From: Streptococcus suis
Lineage (GTDB): Bacteria; Bacillota; Bacilli; Lactobacillales; Streptococcaceae
Assembly: GCF_902702775.1 (NCBI RefSeq)
Contig: NZ_LR738724.1
Location: 1,116,001 to 1,180,000 of the forward strand
Length of the DNA: 64,000 bases
Direction of reading: 5' to 3'
Part shown: positions 1,063-21,317 of the stretch, piece after piece
Numbering within the stretch: position 1 is the stretch's first letter
Layout of the letters: the number at the start of each line of letters is the position of its first letter
Program-made: the position numbers and the translations under genes
The notes under the pieces: model-generated
What the model saw: the letters and a program-made list of their open reading frames with translations, nothing else
Databases searched by the model: none
What the model was told of the DNA's origin: nothing

Positions 1063-4000
1063 CTAAATTGCTCGCGTCGAAAAACTACGACTTTCTAGTA
1101 CAGCCAACATAGCCGCAGCAGTATCTAAGGCTGTAAAAAGCGGAATCCCTGCTTCGATAGCAGATGCACGAATAACCTCTCCATCCTCGTCTGCCACACG
1201 CTTTTTGCCTACTGTATTGACAATGGCTTGCACTTTTCCTTTACGGACCAGCTGAGGAATCGACTCTCTTTGGTCTCTACTGATTTTCCCAACAGGCAGA
1301 CAGTCTAAGCCCTTAGCTTGAAAGGCAGTTGCCGTACCGCTTGTAGCCGCAATAATAAAGCCAATTTCACGGTATCTTTCCGCTAGACGGAAGGCCTCCT
1401 CCTTGTCCTCATCCGCAACTGTAAAGACGATAGTGCCAAAATCTTCCAAATGCTGATAACTTGCTTCAAAAGCCTTATAAAGTGCTTTTTCGAGAGTTGT
1501 ATCAGACCCCATAATCTCACCAGTAGATTTCATCTCAGGTCCTAACAAACTGTCAACTTTAGCCAATTTTGTAAATGAGAATACTGGTGCTTTAACGTGC
1601 ACCTGATTGCTCTCAGGATAAAGACCATCTTGGTAACCCAGTTCCGCAAGGCTTTGTCCCAAAATCAATTTGGTTGCAACCTGGGCCATTGGAATGTCTG
1701 TGACTTTGGACAAGAATGGAACCGTACGACTAGCACGAGGATTGACCTCAATCACATAAACCGTCTCATCCTTGATAACAAACTGGATATTCATCATACC
1801 GATACAGTTGAGACCGATTGCCAAGCGTCTGGTGTAGTCTGCAATGGCCGCCTGCACCTCTTTAGACAGGGTTTGTGGCGGATAAACAGCCATCGAGTCA
1901 CCTGAGTGAACCCCTGCGCGTTCGATATGTTCCATAATACCTGGAATCAAGACATCCTTACCGTCTGAAATGGCATCCACTTCACACTCACGACCGACGA
2001 TGTAAGAATCCACCAAAACTGGATGTTCCGGCGAAGCCTTGACCGCCGTTCTCATATAAGAACGTAAGTCCTCTTCATTTTCGACAATTTCCATAGCACG
2101 ACCGCCCAAGACATATGAGGGACGAACAAGTACTGGGAAACCAATTTTGTGGGCCGCTTCTAGTGCTTCCTCTTCATTGGTTGCGGTTTGGCCTGGTGGC
2201 TGTGGAATACCAAGGTCTTTCAGGGCTTTTTCAAATAAATCCCTGTCTTCAGCTCTATCCAAGTCTTCCACTTGCGTCCCCAAGATTGGAATACCTGCTT
2301 TTGCCAATGGCTCTGCCAAATTAATGGCCGTCTGGCCACCGAACTGAACGATAACCCCTTTGGGTTTCTCAAGGTCAATCACATTCAAGACATCTTCCAA
2401 GGTCAACGGCTCGAAGTAAAGCTTGTCCGAAACCGAAAAGTCAGTTGACACTGTTTCAGGGTTTGAGTTCATTATGATAGCTTCGTAGCCAGCCGCTTGA
2501 ATGGCCTTGACCGAATGCACCGTTGCATAGTCAAACTCCACACCCTGTCCGATACGGATTGGGCCAGAACCCAGCACCAAAACAGATTCTTTTTCCGAGC
2601 GGATGGACTCATTTTCCCACTCATAAGTTGAATAGAAATAAGGTGTAGCACTTTCAAATTCAGCTGCACAAGTGTCCACCATCTTATAAACAGGGACAAT
2701 TTTGTGCTCTGTCCGCAGTTGACGAATGTAGGATTCTGTCCGTCCCCAGAGTTCCGCAATCTTGCGATCTGCAAAACCGTATTTCTTGGCTTTCTTCAAT
2801 AAATCAATATTATCAAAATTCGTTACCAATTCCTGCTCGATTTCTAAGATATGAAGCAGCTTATCAAGGAAGAAAAGATCAATCTTCGTCAATTGAGCCA
2901 GTTCTTCTACTGTAAAGCCACGTCGAAGAGCTTCTGAAAGATAGAATAAACGATCATCCTGTGCCTTGACAATCTTTTCAACCAATTGGTCATCTGTCAC
3001 TTGGCTGAGTTCGGGCATTTCATTGTGATAGACTCCGATTTCTAAAGAACGGCAGGCCTTGAGCAAACTTTCTTCGATATTGCGACCAATGGCCATGACC
3101 TCACCAGTTGCCTTCATCTGCGTTCCAAGGCGGCGCTCCCCTTTTTCAAACTTATCAAATGGGAAACGAGGAATCTTAGCCACAACGTAGTCAAGTGCAG
3201 GTTCAAACATGGCATAGGTTGTCCCTGTGACAGGGTTCACCATTTCATCCAAGGTCAAGCCAACCGCAATTTTTGCTGCCAATTTGGCAATAGGATAACC
3301 TGTCGCTTTGGATGCCAAGGCAGAGGAACGGGACACACGTGGGTTCACTTCGATGACATAGTATTTGAAACTATGTGGATCCAGTGCCAACTGCACATTA
3401 CAACCGCCCTCGATTTTCAAGGCACGGATGATGCTGAGACTGGCATCACGCAGCATCTGGTTTTCAATATCCGAAAGCGTCTGCGTTGGGGCAAATACGA
3501 TAGAATCTCCTGTATGAATTCCCACAGGGTCAAAGTTTTCCATGTTACATACGACCAAGGCATTGTCAGCTGCATCGCGCATTACTTCGTATTCGATTTC
3601 CTTGAAACCAGCAATCGAACGCTCAATCAAACACTGGGTCACCGGTGATAGTTTCAGACCATTTTCCGCTATTTCACGCAGTTCTTCTTCATTGGCACAC
3701 ATACCACCGCCAGTACCACCCAACGTGAAGGCTGGGCGAACAATGACAGGATAGCCAATTTCACCAGCAAATTCCAAAGCCTCTTCAACTGTTGTCACAA
3801 TCGTTGACTCAGGAATAGGTTGATTGAGATCTTCCATGAGTTGTTTGAAGAGGTCGCGGTCCTCTGCCTGATCAATTGCAGAGAGTTTGGTTCCCAACAG
3901 CTCAACTCCAAGCTCATCTAAAATACCAGCCTTAGACAATTCCATGGCCATGTTTAGACCGGTCTGACCACCAAGAGTCGGCAAGAGAGCATCTGGACGC

Positions 4001-4242
4001 TCCTTCTGTAAAATCCGTGTGACAAATTCAAGCGTAATCGGCTCAATATAGACCTTATCCGCAATTTCCTTGTCTGTCATGATGGTCGCAGGGTTTGAAT
4101 TGACCAAGACAACACTATAGCCTTCTTCCTTTAAAGCCAAACAAGCCTGAGTCCCAGCATAATCAAACTCCGCAGCCTGACCGATAATAATCGGACCAGA
4201 CCCAATCACCATAATTTTCTTAATATCCGTACGTTTTGGCAT
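1063..4242 (-). CDS. carB: Carbamoyl-phosphate synthase large subunit
   Basis: At 1059 aa this is full length for CarB. It makes carbamoyl phosphate from bicarbonate, two ATP and ammonia delivered by CarA, feeding pyrimidine and arginine synthesis. The two homologous halves are visible: each opens with a V(I/L)GSGP(I/R)xIGQ motif (about residues 12-22 and 555-565) and continues with an ATP-grasp region, followed by a C-terminal allosteric MGS domain. The start [16 protein letters not shown] is the conserved one. Oddly, no SD lies before the ATG: the sequence directly upstream is the end of a repeat shared with carA (CCCTTAATATCTTA). Expression is probably controlled through the PyrR-type hairpin at 4400-4417. 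Confidence 0.97.
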
Positions 4243-4247
4243 AATTT

Positions 4248-4395
4248 TAAGATATTAAGGGCGTTAAGCGGACACAGTCAAAATAGGAGTTTGACCAAGA
4301 ACGCTTGCGTTCGAGGAAAAACTATCTTTTTGACCCAGTCCGTAGCCCGAATTCAATTACAAAATCCGAGCAACAGAACACCCCTTCTCCTTTCT
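4248..4395 (-). repeat. Cruciform repeat upstream of carB (copy 1 of a dispersed family)
   Basis: About 150 bp almost identical to 5556-5703 upstream of carA. Read on the mRNA strand it holds AGAAAGGAG, then a GTG (4381) opening a 19-codon reading frame that ends at 4322, then a long imperfect inverted repeat. The outer arms are GGGC and CGGAC against GTCCG and GCCC, the middle arm is GGTCAAAA against TTTTGAC, and the inner hairpin is GAACGCAAGCGTTC. It ends TTAATATCTTA immediately before the start codon. A diverged copy at 21108-21234 has terminal inverted repeats, which suggests a MITE-like origin. Confidence 0.85.
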
Positions 4396-4399
4396 ATTC

Positions 4400-4417
4400 G
4401 TCGCCTCTCTGAGCGAC
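4400..4417 (-). promoter_or_regulatory. PyrR-type RNA hairpin before carB
   Basis: The mRNA strand reads GTCGCTCAGAGAGGCGAC: a 5-bp stem closing a CAGAGAG-type loop, close to the known PyrR binding-loop consensus (UCCNGNGAGG). It is preceded by the conserved GTCGGACT...ATTTAAT and followed by AATAGAAAGG, as at the other intergenic sites. I see no typical U-tract terminator directly after it, so the mode of control is unclear. Confidence 0.7.
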
Positions 4418-4438
4418 ATTAAATAAGATAAGTCCGAC

Positions 4439-4477
4439 GCAGTAAGGTTTAGCTCGATAGTGGTTAAACCTTACTGC
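4439..4477 (-). promoter_or_regulatory. 13-bp hairpin with TATCGA loop, carA-carB junction
   Basis: A perfect 13-bp stem (GCAGTAAGGTTTA and its complement) with a loop containing CTATCGAGC. It overlaps the carA stop codon (CAG TAA). Two relatives lie between pyrB and carA (5743-5781 and 5868-5904); all three keep TATCGA in the loop. There is no U tract after the stem, so it is not an ordinary terminator. Confidence 0.7.
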
Positions 4478-5550
4478 CCTTTTTTAAACGAATCCATCAA
4501 TTCCATAAATTCATCAAACAAATAGCTGGCATCATGTGGACCAGGTGCAGCATCTGGGTGGAATTGAACAGAGAAACCTGGATAGTACTTGTGGCGTACC
4601 CCTTCTACTGATTTGTCATTGATTTCTTCATGAGTAATCATTAAACATTCAGGTAAATCTTCACGAGCCACTGCATAACCATGGTTCTGACTGGTAAAGT
4701 CCACTCGACCTGTCGCAATTTCACGAACAGCATGGTTGAAACCACGGTGACCAAACTTCATTTTATAAGTCGTTGCCCCATTTGCTTTAGCAAAAAGTTG
4801 GTGCCCCATACAGATACCAAAAATTGGAATTTTACCAAGAATCCCACGAATCATTTCTAGCGCTTCTGGAACATCATCTGGATTTCCTGGGCCGTTTGAT
4901 AGCATGACACCATCAGGATGGAGGGCAAGAATTTCTTCAGCAGTCGTATCATACGGGACAACTGTCACATTGCAATCACGCTTGGCTAACTCTCTAAGAA
5001 TAGAATGTTTCAATCCAAAATCAACCAGAACGACACTACGTCCAACTCCAGGTGCAGGATAGGCTGTTTTTGTTGATACTTGCTGGATGTTGTTGGTTGG
5101 CAAAACAGTCGCTCTCAACTGGTCTGTCAAATGCTCCACAGAATCACCGACATTTGCAAGAGTCGCCTTCATGGTACCGTGCTGACGAATAATTTTAGTT
5201 AGGGCGCGTGTGTCAATTCCAGAAATTGCTGGAATTTTCTTAGCCTTTAAAAATTCATCCAAAGTCATCTGGTTACGCCAGTTACTTGCCCGACGAGCCC
5301 ACTCACTGACAACCACTCCCTTACAAGTCGGCTTAATTGACTCGTAATCATCACGGTTAATCCCGTAATTTCCTACCAAGGGATAGGTAAAGGTTAAAAT
5401 CTGACCATTATAAGACTGGTCCGTGATAGATTCCTGATAACCTGTCATCCCAGTTGAGAAAACCAACTCACCAGTCACATCAATATCAGCACCGAAGGCC
5501 TCCCCTTCAAAAATAGTGCCATCCTCTAAAATCAAACGTCTTTTTGACAT
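4471..5550 (-). CDS. carA: Carbamoyl-phosphate synthase small (glutaminase) subunit
   Basis: At 359 aa this has normal CarA length. It hydrolyses glutamine and passes ammonia to CarB. The N-terminal CPSase domain contains [19 protein letters not shown]. The class I glutamine amidotransferase domain holds the nucleophile Cys in IFGICMGHQ (about residue 245) and the His in [13 protein letters not shown] near the C-terminus. It starts [11 protein letters not shown], the conserved start, again without an SD: the ATG follows TTAATATCTTATTATT, the end of the repeat shared with carB. The stop codon is embedded in the hairpin at 4439-4477. Confidence 0.97.
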
Positions 5551-5555
5551 AATAA

Positions 5556-5703
5556 TAAGATATTAAGGGCGTTAAGCGGACACAGTCAAAATAGGAGTTT
5601 GACCAAGAACGCTTGCGTTCGAGGAAAAACTATCTTTTTGACCCAGTCCGTAGCCCGAATTCAGTTACAAATCCGAGCAACAGAGCACCCACTCTCCTTT
5701 CTA
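5556..5703 (-). repeat. Cruciform repeat upstream of carA (copy 2)
   Basis: Nearly identical to 4248-4395, including the AAAGGAG-N5-GTG segment, the long imperfect inverted repeat with its GAACGCAAGCGTTC core, and the TTAATATCTTA end that abuts the ATG. A one-base difference in the A run shortens the GTG mini-frame to seven codons here. The duplication covers the sequence from the PyrR hairpin to the start codon. Confidence 0.85.
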
Positions 5704-5705
5704 TT

Positions 5706-5725
5706 TTCTATCTCTCCGGATAGAA
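5706..5725 (-). promoter_or_regulatory. PyrR-type RNA hairpin before carA
   Basis: The mRNA strand reads TTCTATCCGGAGAGATAGAA. The stem is wholly different from the carB site (TCTAT/ATAGA instead of GTCGC/GCGAC), while the loop keeps the UCCGGAGAG of the PyrR consensus. Compensatory stem change with loop conservation is good evidence for an RNA-protein binding hairpin. Confidence 0.75.
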
Positions 5726-5742
5726 TTAAATAATAGTCCGAC

Positions 5743-5781
5743 GTTTGTACGGTCAATTCGATAATAATTGACTGTACAAAC
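5743..5781 (-). promoter_or_regulatory. 16-bp hairpin with TATCGA loop
   Basis: GTTTGTACNGTCAATT pairs with its complement with one mismatch, closing a loop that contains TTATCGA. It lies just upstream of the GTCGGACT leader of the carA PyrR hairpin, the same relative place as 4439-4477 has before carB. Confidence 0.65.
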
Positions 5782-5867
5782 TAGTGTCAAAGTTAGCAAA
5801 GGTCCCATAGGACTTTGCATAGGAGGACAAATGCTTTAGCATATCATCCGACTTGCTCTGACCGACA

Positions 5868-5904
5868 CAGTAAGGTTTAGCTCGATATTAGATAAACCTT
5901 ACTG
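5868..5904 (-). promoter_or_regulatory. 12-bp hairpin with TATCGA loop
   Basis: The stem CAGTAAGGTTTA and its complement are the same as at 4439-4477 with a slightly different loop (TCTAATATCGAGC). GTCGG follows, but no PyrR hairpin follows directly, unlike the other two. Confidence 0.65.
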
Positions 5905-5994
5905 CTAGTGCAAGGGATAGCCTGACCTCCATAGAGGCAGGCGTAGGGAAATGAGTTGCTTGCAACCATTGACCTGTCCCTTACCTTTCTATTC

Positions 5995-6012
5995 GTCGCC
6001 TCTCTGAGCGAC
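5995..6012 (-). promoter_or_regulatory. PyrR-type RNA hairpin just after pyrB
   Basis: The same 18-nt hairpin as before carB (GTCGCTCAGAGAGGCGAC), with the same GACTTATCTTATTTAAT upstream flank, about 40 nt after the pyrB stop. The 5551-6054 gap therefore holds two PyrR-type hairpins, two TATCGA-loop hairpins and one cruciform repeat. I see no gene in it. Confidence 0.7.
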
Positions 6013-6054
6013 ATTAAATAAGATAAGTCTAACAAATTTCTAAATAGTTAAAGT

Positions 6055-6978
6055 TTAAGCCTTGCCATTGACAATTGCTTCCAAAATCGCCATCCGAACA
6101 AAGACACCATTTTGCATTTGACGGACAATACGTGATTTTGGTGCCTCTACCAATTGGTCATCAATTTCTACATCACGGTTAACAGGGGCCGGATGCATAA
6201 CAATTGCAGTATCTTTCAAGCGTTTGTAGCGTTCATCAGTCAAACCATGCAAACGGTTATAAGTTTCTTTAGAGAATCCACCATCACCATCATGTCGTTC
6301 GTGTTGCACACGGAGCAACATCAGTACATCTACCATTTCCACAATATCATCAATATTCAAATGCTGACCATAGACATCAAATTCCTCTGCGTACCATTCC
6401 TCCGGTCCAGCAAAGAAAATCTCAGCTCCCAGACGTTTCAAAATTTGCATATTGGACTTAGCAACCCGTGAGTGTGTAATATCACCTGCAATGGCAATCT
6501 TCAAGCCTTCAAAAGTTCCAAATTCTTCATAAATAGTCATCAAATCAAGTAGGGATTGGCTTGGGTGTTGGCCTGAACCATCACCACCATTGACAATTGA
6601 AGTCTGGATGGTAGGACTATCAATCAATTGCTTGTAATAATCCACTTCCGAATGACGAATCACGCAAATGTCTACCCCAAGTGCCGACATGGTCAAAATG
6701 GTATCATACAAGGTTTCACCCTTATTGACTGAGCTGGTACGAGCATCGAAGTCAATCATTCCCATATCCAAACGAAGCTCTGCCATTTCAAAAGACTTAT
6801 GCGTCCGAGTTGAATCCTCAAAGAAAAGGTTAGAAGCATAGTACTTCCGATCCAACTCTACCTTTTCACCGCGTTTAAAAGCAATACCACGTTGAATGAG
6901 TCCCAATACTTCTTCATTTGAGAGGGTCTCCATTGTAACCAAGTGTTTGAGTGAAACTTTACCATTTGTAATTGTCAT
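6055..6978 (-). CDS. pyrB: Aspartate carbamoyltransferase catalytic subunit
   Basis: A protein of 307 aa, normal for the catalytic chain. It joins carbamoyl phosphate and aspartate in the first committed pyrimidine step. The carbamoyl-phosphate motif is seen as [16 protein letters not shown] (about residues 52-67), followed by [24 protein letters not shown] and, near the end, [12 protein letters not shown]. No pyrI partner is present, as expected in Gram-positives. It follows pyrR after 55 bp with an AAGGTAGG SD, and precedes carA after a 504-bp structured leader. Confidence 0.97.
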
Positions 6979-7033
6979 GATGATACCTACCTTTATGATC
7001 TAGATGTAGAATGATAATTTGTAAACGAAGCGA

Positions 7034-7555
7034 CTATGCACCTTCAACCAGAAGGACAGCGTCTTGACCATCGATTTCAGCCATGTGCACAATGATTTCT
7101 TCAGAACGACTAGTTGGAATATTCTTCCCAACATAATCTGCTCGAATAGGCAACTCCCTGTGTCCACGATCCACAAGTACCGCTAAACTAACGCGAGCTG
7201 GACGGCCCAAGGACACTATGTTGTCAATAGCAGCACGAATAGTTCGTCCTGTATAAAGCACATCATCTACTAATATAACATCACGATCGTTGACATTGGC
7301 AGTCATATTTGTCGTATCATCTTCTACCTTCATGTCATCTCGAAACGGCTTGGTATCCAACTCTCCCAACGGAACATCGATACCCTCTAATTGCTTAAGC
7401 CTCTCCTGAATCCTCTTTGCAATGAAAACACCCCGTGTTTTAATCCCTGCAAGGACAATATTATCCAAATTCTTGTTCCGCTCGATAATTTCATAAGTGA
7501 TACGGGTGATCGCCCGTTTCATAGTCATATCGTCAACGATTTCTTTTGTCTTCAT
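7034..7555 (-). CDS. pyrR: PyrR bifunctional RNA-binding attenuator / uracil phosphoribosyltransferase
   Basis: A protein of 173 aa. PyrR binds specific mRNA hairpins when UMP is abundant and so lowers pyr operon expression; it also has UPRT activity. The PRPP-binding loop [19 protein letters not shown] (about residues 95-113) is clear, as is the N-terminal [20 protein letters not shown]. It is the first gene of the operon, with its own promoter and attenuator upstream (7574-7719), which implies autoregulation. The SD is TTGGAGG. Confidence 0.97.
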
Positions 7556-7573
7556 AAGACCTCCAAAAGTATA

Positions 7574-7600
7574 GAAAAAGTCTCCTTATACAAGGAGACT
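7574..7600 (-). terminator. pyrR: Attenuator terminator of the pyrR leader
   Basis: AGTCTCCTT-GTAT-AAGGAGACT followed by TTTTTC on the minus strand, 19 nt before the pyrR ATG. It is the terminator that PyrR binding upstream would favour. Confidence 0.85.
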
Positions 7601-7650
7601 ATGAAAATATAGGCTAGTTAGAACCAACCTGCTTAACATCCGACTCCTTG

Positions 7651-7667
7651 TCTGCCTCTCTGGACAG
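7651..7667 (-). promoter_or_regulatory. PyrR binding hairpin in the pyrR leader
   Basis: The mRNA reads CTGTCCAGAGAGGCAGA. It fits the PyrR loop consensus (UCCAGAGAGG) with a closing pair, between the promoter and the attenuator terminator. Confidence 0.85.
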
Positions 7668-7690
7668 GTTTTAAAGGATTTATTAAGCAG

Positions 7691-7719
7691 AGTATAGCAT
7701 AAAATCTCAGCCTTGACAA
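7691..7719 (-). promoter_or_regulatory. Promoter of the pyr operon
   Basis: TTGTCA, 17-nt spacer, TATACT on the minus strand, a near-consensus housekeeping promoter about 135 nt before pyrR. Confidence 0.8.
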
Positions 7720-7753
7720 TTTTTTTCTGAAAAAATATAGAAATTATCGGATT

Positions 7754-12618: not shown

Positions 12619-12762
12619 TATGCACCTCCTATGATTTTTGGGCCTTGCCCGAATTTAATGTGAAGACTCGCCTAGTACCGTGGGACGAACCACTTACTCT
12701 ACTCTCATCGAAAGAACGGCATTCGTGCGGTTGCACAGGAAATGTGCATAGTCAACAGTCCT
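12619..12762 (-). ncRNA. L21 leader RNA (5' UTR of rplU)
   Basis: The long untranslated leader of rplU. Segments such as TGTGCAACCGCACGAATGCCG and TTCGGGCAAGGCCCAA give local hairpins. Firmicutes have a described L21 leader motif at this place; assignment is by position, not by covariance search. Confidence 0.55.
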
Positions 12763-21027: not shown

Positions 21028-21099
21028 CTGGGGTAGCTGGATTCGAACCAACGCATGAGGGAGTCAAAGTCCCTTGCCTTACCGCTTGGCGATACCCCA
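21028..21099 (-). tRNA. tRNA-Gln (TTG)
   Basis: 72 nt with acceptor TGGGGTA/TACCCCA, discriminator G as usual for Gln, anticodon stem AGGGA/TCCCT with loop CTTTGAC (anticodon TTG) and T arm GTTCGAATC. A hairpin ACTAGATATAGTCTAGT (21005-21022) follows on the transcript. Confidence 0.94.
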
Positions 21100-21107
21100 A
21101 AACATTT

Positions 21108-21234
21108 TCTAAGATAGTATTCTGAAATGAACTCGGGCTAAACGCTGTGTAAAAAAGATAAGTCGCCTAGCAAATCAGGATTTGCAGTCAACTCCCTATT
21201 TTTAATATGCGTTTGACGACCTTAGTATCTTAGA
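21108..21234 (+). repeat. MITE-like repeat with terminal inverted repeats, between two tRNA genes
   Basis: 127 bp bounded by TCTAAGATA and TATCTTAGA. Inside, GAACTCGGGCTA, AAAAAAGATA, GTCAACTCCCTATTTT and CCTTAGTATCTTA line up in order with the repeats before carA and carB (which read on the minus strand). The stems differ but stay paired (AAACGC/GCGTTT; inner hairpin GCAAATC-A-GGATTTGC). No coding capacity is seen. Confidence 0.75.
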
Positions 21235-21236
21235 CA

Positions 21237-21317
21237 TGGAGAGAGAGGGATTCGAACCCCCGAACCCGAAGGAGCGGATTTACAGTCCGCCGCGTTTAGC
21301 CTCTTCGCTATCTCTCC
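21237..21317 (-). tRNA. tRNA-Tyr (GTA)
   Basis: 81 nt class II tRNA with a long variable arm. Acceptor GGAGAGA/TCTCTCC, discriminator A, anticodon loop CTGTAAA (GTA) and T arm GGTTCGAATCC. A promoter is seen just upstream (21335-21363), and tRNA-Gln follows after the MITE-like repeat. Confidence 0.94.

Follow-up and report, generated by a model that had tools for sequence, protein, structure and literature searches.

The window, that is, the whole analyzed stretch of 64,000 nt from Streptococcus suis, contains a pyrimidine operon whose genes, like all features described below unless marked otherwise, lie on the minus strand. From the list of open reading frames, we take 7034..7555 to be pyrR (by resemblance), 6055..6978 to be pyrB, 4471..5550 to be carA and 1063..4242 to be carB. 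The operon is headed by the pyrR leader (7571..7681), in which a PyrR binding hairpin and a U-tract terminator form an ordinary attenuator; the leader matches Rfam family RF00515 with 63.2 bits, above the gathering score of 54. Downstream of pyrB, a duplicate PyrR-type hairpin (5989..6021), of which a 46 nt copy at carB is identical, is followed by the Shine-Dalgarno (SD)-like sequence AATAGAAAGG with no gene after it. Then comes an inserted structured module (5909..5988) that, by reading, is closed by AAGGGA/TCCCTT and for which a search of 77 genomes gave strong sequence relatives only in five others, all those read being at pyr loci. Two hairpins with a TATCGA loop, flanked by ACTAG and GTCGG and differing in their stems (5862..5909 and 5738..5785), lead to the carA PyrR-type hairpin (5701..5733, loop CGGAGA), the abutting carA SD AGAAAGGAG (5694..5702, by reading, duplex energy −13.3) and a folded element that fills the space between the SD and the carA start (5556..5693; core 5556-5662, 128.8 bits). 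At the carA-carB junction, a TATCGA hairpin that lacks ACTAG and reads as a plus-strand terminator (4439..4477) precedes the carB PyrR-type hairpin (4394..4426, loop CAGAGA), the carB SD AGAAAGGAG (4387..4395, by reading, duplex energy −13.3) and a second folded element (4248..4386; core 4248-4354, 128.8 bits). An earlier, sequence-only reading had described the four PyrR-type hairpins, the three TATCGA hairpins and the order of TATCGA hairpin, PyrR-type hairpin and AATAGAAAGG before both carA and carB, and all of these are indeed present. It had seen that AATAGAAAGG recurs but missed its identity as SD; likewise, the hairpin modules of its modular series are as described, but the third and largest module, the element from the SD to the start codon, had been overlooked.

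The PyrR-type hairpins consist of a lower stem, a 5'-side bulge, an upper stem and a CNGNGA hexaloop. Against RF00515, the duplicate, carA and carB hairpins score 24.6, 26.3 and 26.1 bits, respectively, all below the gathering score. Such hairpins were matched in 69 of 78 carB leaders, a spread choice among the 123 genomes with a match, and 67 of them have a TTTAA-like strand. Among 49 distinct carB-leader hairpins from across the genus, 9 of the 12 pairs vary in both strands of the stem, 93% of the cells are paired (39–54% in slid controls), and the covariation score is 0.549 (0.052–0.161 in slid controls). This alignment was drawn from 52 distinct hairpin windows, with L319, L356 and L369 omitted as judged to lie outside the TATTTAA...AATAG frame. 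Thus, the covariation in relatives whose absence would have counted against the earlier reading was found; reading also bore out that the carA stem is wholly unlike the carB stem with the loop retained, and the view of these hairpins as modular and duplicated is supported. That carB should carry a PyrR site is no novelty, since a published table places S. pneumoniae carB in the PyrR regulon (gene 1 of 1; PMC12323649).

A terminator consensus scan found six sites, with 3.1 expected from shuffles. On the minus strand outside genes, the terminator-like sites are 7600-7579 and 7630-7611, both in the pyrR leader, and 5915-5897, a weak site of 6 pairs that lies upstream of the carA PyrR hairpin and overlaps a TATCGA hairpin. 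Apart from this weak site, the earlier statement that only the pyrR leader has a normal terminator is right in substance. In this genome, the scan detected no terminator-like site between the PyrR hairpin and the start codon at carA or carB. The AATAGAAAGG that follows the PyrR-type hairpins is a strong SD, directly abutting them at carA and carB, and this also points to translation. Therefore, PyrR likely acts at carA and carB by translational repression.

For the TATCGA hairpin, the sequence-only reading had proposed a role as a second partner element of PyrR control. In its strict form (ACTAG-hairpin-GTCGG), the hairpin is found in 21 of the 78 carB leaders, the window's own carB copy being missed for want of ACTAG. 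These leaders contain 22 such hairpins, 19 with TATCG; the stems differ, and 19 of the 22 lie at −225 to −246, a nearly constant distance as would suit a partner. However, most leaders with a PyrR hairpin lack it: even a loose form (an ATCG loop enclosed by 11 or more pairs, chance hits surely among them) occurs in only 27 of the 78 carB leaders and in 25 of the 67 that carry an in-frame PyrR-type hairpin. Moreover, hairpins with this frame and loop are present outside pyr loci, both in this genome (L299) and in five others, the latter picked by eye among the matches to a pattern that is no commoner than its reversed control. On these leader counts and copies, a pyr-specific partner was rejected, and a function as second partner of PyrR is very unlikely; judged by its distribution, the hairpin is real, but a module of general occurrence.

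The approximately 140 nt between SD and start are nearly identical at carA and carB (a 130 nt direct repeat, 97%). In an alignment of 150 of the 165 matches that was fitted to the model, and in which some copies also appear as their reverse-strand match, 24 of the 26 pairs of the element changed on both sides and 98.0% of the cells were paired, compared with at most 56.8% in slid controls. Omission of the 13 rows that lack the 5' end still gave 24 of 26 pairs and 97.9%, and an unfitted alignment of 14 sequences gave 14 of 26. This genome has 18 copies above 50 bits, of which 12 end 2–5 nt before a start codon, namely those of carA, carB and ten other genes; prfA, thrS, alaS, proS, dnaJ, purB, uvrA, mutM and an ABC gene are among the genes with start-proximal copies. 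The other six are unconnected to starts; one copy (21129..21232, plus strand; genome positions 1137129-1137232; 57.4 bits) is flanked by two tRNA genes on the opposite strand and has no start codon next to it. Matches occur in at least 45 Streptococcus genomes, and in this genome and most of the carB leaders compared the element occupies about 110–145 nt between SD and AUG. Dispersed, folded copies whose presence at orthologous sites varies (at prfA, 5 of 40 genomes) fit an interspersed palindromic repeat or MITE.

By reading, many start-proximal copies form a three-way junction closed by AGGGC/GCCC, and in start-proximal copies a 5' hairpin strand competes with an outer GAAYN/NRUAUC helix for the same bases. 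Together with the strong conservation of loops such as AAAAAGAUA/UCCUAUUUU, this competition would fit a riboswitch or protein-binding regulator that opens and closes the SD by means of two folds. Nevertheless, such a regulator is improbable: the genes concerned (aminoacyl-tRNA synthetases, a release factor, a chaperone, repair, nucleotide synthesis) share no pathway, the same core also occurs away from genes, and none of 4227 Rfam families covers the element above chance, either in the region (up to E 5) or at 12 own-genome loci (up to E 2). The only Rfam match overlapping the element at these 12 loci has 19 bits and E 1.5 (in L050); the sub-threshold PyrR matches of the carA and carB leaders extend into the element. 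A known RNA family or riboswitch was therefore rejected as the identity of the element.

The position of the SD was compared between carB leaders with and without the element, using duplex energies for an assumed anti-SD sequence that may differ from that of this genome's 16S rRNA and a threshold of dG ≤ −6 for a near SD. The element was matched in 56 of the 78 leaders; in L356 the match stops some 65 nt short of the start codon, and this leader was counted as lacking an adjacent element. None of the 55 leaders with an adjacent element has a near SD and 52 have a far SD (50 of them at dG −12 or stronger), whereas the 23 leaders without it include 14 with a near SD and six with a far SD. The three exceptions in the first group (L320, L326 and L347) have no strong SD in the stretch tested. 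Nine of the 23 also lack a near SD, five of these having a far SD; the eight of these nine that were inspected have a TATC-containing tail at their end, as decayed or variant elements might. At prfA (40 leaders, again a spread choice, out of 147), none of the five genomes with the element has a near SD, compared with 33 of the 35 others; one of the five (L381) has no strong SD in the stretch tested. Relatives also show element-free sites: S. equinus carB reads PyrR hairpin-AATAGGAG-AAAATAATG, in some other streptococci the carB start codon lies within about 10 bases of the SD, and the carB leader of the relative L319 reads as a deletion that left SD-TTTGTATCATCATT-ATG.

Copies away from starts in the genus were included in a second comparison of 99 distinct contexts, chosen from the better-scoring matches (82 of 165, plus 18 own-genome matches, entered). 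An upstream SD (dG ≤ −9) was present at 41 of 42 distinct start-proximal copies and at six of 57 other copies, and a strand able to pair with the 5' end of the element at 34 and four, respectively; as the sequences compared are related, Fisher values for such counts overstate their independence. These data bear on the possibility that the element is a selfish palindromic repeat, the genes being translated without a SD from the A/U-rich stretch UAUCUUAUNNUUAUG between fold and AUG and the upstream SD being a relic. The copies away from starts (six of 18 in this genome, 57 of the 99 chosen contexts) and the A/U-rich stretch itself would agree with this explanation, as would the related repeats of other families, which lie between genes and often in tandem (20 of the 41 matches read). 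Yet the retention of the far SD at carB despite a distance of about 140 nt and the extra 5' hairpin strand typical of start-proximal copies argue against a relic, and we consider this explanation unlikely.

Alternatively, the SD could serve a short leader peptide, after which ribosomes reinitiate at the main start (coupling or translational attenuation). At carB, a frame of 19 codons does open at a GTG that lies 16 nt inside the SD window, but no start codon after the SD is common to the copies, and none at all was seen in the scanned stretch at dnaJ, purB, alaS and the ABC gene. The other frames end 17–125 nt before the start and have no common length; for prfA, proS and the ABC gene, scanning started from the SD with the best score, which there is not the SD closest to the element. 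With neither a start codon nor a frame common to the 12 own-genome copies, the leader peptide was rejected and is very unlikely. An N-terminal extension of the proteins through the element was excluded, since every one of the 12 start-proximal copies in this genome has in-frame stop codons ahead of the start.

The location of the element between SD and start, with a PyrR hairpin before the SD, suggests an unusual translation control. Our preferred reading, to which we assign a probability of roughly 60%, is that carA and carB are under translational control and that the element bridges SD and AUG as a split ribosome-binding site. The element would fold into one closed domain that brings SD and AUG within roughly 8–25 unpaired bases of each other, so that a 30S subunit could bind both. 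At carA and carB, we infer that PyrR with bound UMP would hold its hairpin and thereby keep the 30S subunit off the adjoining SD. Single-sequence folds of 11 genes were more stable than dinucleotide shuffles and formed one closed domain in 10 of the 11. The unpaired path between SD and AUG in these folds, 8–25 nt, mostly exceeds normal SD spacing and is not shorter than in the shuffles (means of 10–21 nt); thus, a short path alone proves nothing, and we rejected it as proof of bridging. There is about an even chance that a mobile-like repeat family settles between SD and start and rebuilds the ribosome-binding site by its own fold, that at carA and carB the PyrR hairpin closes the SD, and that the extra 5' hairpin may provide a second regulated fold.

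If the split-site reading is true, a bridged initiation region is used by carB in many Streptococcus species and, in this genome, by genes such as thrS, alaS, proS and prfA, and gene finders and SD models would score such starts as lacking a SD. A palindromic repeat could then enter a bacterial message where it is most vulnerable and the gene would survive. Many natural variants, in which the element is present, absent, flipped or partly deleted, would allow a direct test of whether a large fold bridges SD and AUG. The reading would also explain how one pyr operon combines PyrR attenuation at its head with PyrR translational control at internal genes. No description of this element, or of any streptococcal split ribosome-binding site, turned up in a literature search that covered few subscription journals, so that novelty is unproven.

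The carA and carB hairpins share stem-bulge-stem and CNGNGA loop with the PyrR binding site of RF00515, but they score below gathering and are followed by a SD instead of a terminator. PyrR reportedly represses translation in Mycobacterium (Fields and Switzer 2007); the likeness is that PyrR would occlude a ribosome-binding site, whereas there is reportedly one leader there, and here the hairpin is repeated within an operon headed by an attenuator leader.

As a repeat, the element resembles the BOX, RUP, SPRITE and S. suis BOX families, which are likewise palindromic, modular, scattered and located beside genes and which, in the part of the source available, are read by its authors as parasitic (PMC3049150). 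According to that description, those repeats hardly occur in streptococci beyond S. pneumoniae, S. mitis and, for the BOX type, S. suis, which sets them apart from an element with matches in at least 45 Streptococcus genomes, and the same part reports no link of theirs to SD and start codon.

A parallel is offered by phage T4 genes 25 and 38, in whose split initiation regions RNA structure shortens the path from SD to AUG from 22 to 5 nt and from 27 to 11 nt (PMC3014915). In both systems the SD is too distant and an RNA structure lies between it and the start; carB shows the same combination of no SD at normal spacing and a SD upstream of a structure. Compared with what is described there, the structure in streptococci spans 110–145 nt, belongs to a repeat family, is a candidate bridge for a dozen genes of the chromosome and across many Streptococcus species, and is missing from some orthologues.

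The junctions of the pyrimidine operon are a mosaic, in which PyrR-type hairpins lie on Shine-Dalgarno (SD) sequences, interspersed modules are inserted between hairpin duplicates, and a large folded element parts the SD from the start codon. The genes, all on the minus strand in the ORF list, are presumably pyrR (7555-7034), pyrB (6978-6055), carA (5550-4471) and carB (4242-1063), as named by resemblance; the encoded CarA shares 97% identity with its counterpart in S. suis 2219. Every hairpin listed in the sequence-only reading was found in the window by sequence reading, Rfam, and scans for terminators and repeats. The observation was right, and the interpretation half right: it held for the PyrR-type hairpins, but not for their supposed partner. 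The window also contains an L21 ribosomal protein leader (12654-12742, minus strand; Rfam 51 bits).

Only the pyrR leader, with 63.2 bits, passed the cut-off of the Rfam PyrR family; the remaining three PyrR-type hairpins in the window scored 24.6-26.3 bits. The segment read previously as AATAGAAAGG is a strong SD that takes the form AGAAAGGAG at carA and carB, with a duplex energy of -13.3 at both genes; all duplex energies were computed with an assumed anti-SD tail. At carB of S. equinus, which carries no further inserts, the order is hairpin-AATAGGAG-AAAATAATG, and at carA the hairpin is followed directly by SD and start in five of ten named Streptococcus loci (S. infantis, S. pseudopneumoniae, two further isolates, and S. 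equinus). Among 78 carB leaders of the genus, chosen by us from 123 genomes with a CarB match, 69 have a PyrR-type match with at least five of the six upper pairs, and 67 have one with an in-frame TTTAA-like strand. The compensatory stem changes claimed for these hairpins are seen in related genomes as well: in 49 distinct carB-leader hairpins (three of 52 were dropped), 93.0% of the cells are paired, both sides vary in nine of the 12 pairs, and the covariation score is 0.549 versus 0.052-0.161 for slid structures, that is, controls with the pairing pattern shifted along the alignment. The terminator scan of the window also bore out the claim that carA and carB have no normal terminator, as no terminator-like site was detected between either hairpin and its start; on this strand the two junctions contain just one such site, with 6 pairs, at 5915-5897. 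Because the hairpins lie on the SDs and no terminator-like site separates them from the starts, we infer that PyrR would repress translation at carA and carB. A published table already includes carB of S. pneumoniae in the predicted PyrR regulon (PMC12323649), and four sites at operon heads are named in a passage of a study on PyrR switches in the pneumococcus (PMC6212727).

The TATCGA hairpin, which had been proposed as a second element of PyrR control, is taken here for an interspersed module rather than a partner of PyrR, given that copies occur away from the pyr genes and that, of the 67 leaders whose PyrR-type hairpin is in frame, only 25 contain even a loosely matching ATCG-loop hairpin (27 of all 78). 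The frame ACTAG-hairpin-GTCGG surrounds 22 hairpins in 21 of the 78 leaders; 19 of the 22 have TATCG, and 19 are located at -225 to -246. A larger module around the hairpin has matches in nine of 78 genomes, the window's own included, six of them strong. The own genome (G000) has the same frame and loop away from the pyr genes (L299, G000:C1:2093490-2093535); beside it lies a short hydrophobic frame, perhaps a type I toxin gene. Such hairpins also occur in five other genomes (G006, G246, G251, G262, and G277), where they were picked by eye from a list of a pattern no commoner than its reversed control. The frame without the TATCG loop is found in elements that resemble BOX (L300). A BOX-like array (L301, G000:C1:1750200-1751500) contains several hairpins, one of them in the ACTAG-hairpin-GTCGG frame.

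The third module, about 140 nt between SD and start, is 97% identical over 130 nt between carA and carB and recurs elsewhere in the genome. A covariance model of its core (R1), built from 14 sequences with 26 pairs, 14 of which have changes on both sides, gave 22 matches in the own genome at E <= 0.01, 18 of them above 50 bits. Twelve of these 18 end 2-5 nt ahead of a start codon, those of genes named by resemblance prfA, carB, carA, dnaJ, thrS, purB, alaS, proS, uvrA, mutM, a thioredoxin-like gene, and an ABC transporter gene. Two of the other six lie 49 and 59 nt ahead of genes (surface protein and rplF), and four lie away from starts. One of these four, in the window (21129-21232, plus strand), sits between two minus-strand tRNA genes (21028-21099 and 21237-21317); the TATCTTA at its 3' end recurs in inverted form, TAAGATA, in its 5' flank. 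Upstream of dnaJ there are two elements in tandem (L059, G000:C1:282036-282195, and L042); the first scores 30.6 bits and carries an inserted hairpin, and GAAAGGA is present twice. T-box matches are found upstream of thrS (L044, 2056-2262, minus strand; 72.8 bits) and alaS (L050, 2223-2390, minus strand; 53.4 bits), below the Rfam cut-off of 93, so these genes may combine the element with T-box control.

An alignment fitted to the model took in 150 of 165 matches as 128 distinct rows, in some of which a palindromic copy is matched again on its reverse strand. Of its cells, 98.0% are paired, versus at most 56.8% for slid structures, and both sides vary in 24 of the 26 pairs; dropping 13 rows without the 5' end again gave 24 of 26 pairs, with 97.9% of cells paired. 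Different subfamilies of the element occupy the same site at carB: in the window the inner closing helix reads GGGC/GCCC, in S. suis 2219 GCCC/GGGC. With scoring limited to 13 candidates per genome, R1 matched in 58 of 295 genomes sampled from the order; 45 of these belong to the same genus, and the 13 from other genera have weaker scores. At least one genome of the same genus has no match. The 20 of 41 other-genus matches that were read, from six of the 13 genomes, are mostly intergenic and often in tandem, and none lies 2-5 nt before a start. Intergenic, often tandem loci from other families of the order (L090-L119) have the internal loop AAAAAGATA / TTCCTRTTTTT in common with the element.

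In 55 of the 78 carB leaders the element ends just before the ATG. None of these 55 has a near SD (dG <= -6, no more than 22 nt from the ATG), and 52 have a far SD at about 83-160 nt upstream, which reaches -12 or stronger in 50 leaders. Among the 23 leaders with no adjacent element match, a near SD is present in 14 and a far SD in six; five of the nine lacking a near SD have a far one. The eight of these nine leaders that were inspected finish in a tail containing TATC and may carry decayed or variant elements. The carB leader of a relative (L319) reads SD-TTTGTATCATCATT-ATG, which looks like a loss of the core. For prfA, the element is present in five of 40 genomes, none of the five with a near SD, and 33 of the 35 genomes without it have an ordinary near SD. 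Across 99 distinct contexts of several genes, picked from the better matches, 41 of 42 start-proximal copies have an SD (dG <= -9) in the 60 nt upstream of the element, versus 6 of 57 others. A strand whose sequence is complementary to the first six bases of the element lies upstream in 34 of 42 versus 4 of 57; as the sequences are related, the p values of these comparisons overstate their independence. In folds of the carA, carB, thrS, and thioredoxin-like gene leaders, this strand and an AGGGC-like segment yield a multi-branched domain with its base beside the SD.

Most likely, the ribosome-binding site is split across the element, and the fold would allow one 30S subunit to bind the AUG and the SD ahead of the element at once. 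Against such bridging, the unpaired path from SD to AUG in single folds is 8-25 nt, no shorter than in shuffles; the main rival explanation is a selfish insert followed by an SD-independent start. A leader peptide after the SD is unlikely on a scan of the frames there. The functions suggested for the element and the PyrR-type hairpins at the junctions are inferred. A split ribosome-binding site, the arrangement that we propose likewise for the streptococcal element, is described for phage T4 genes 25 and 38 in a passage of an earlier report (PMC3014915).
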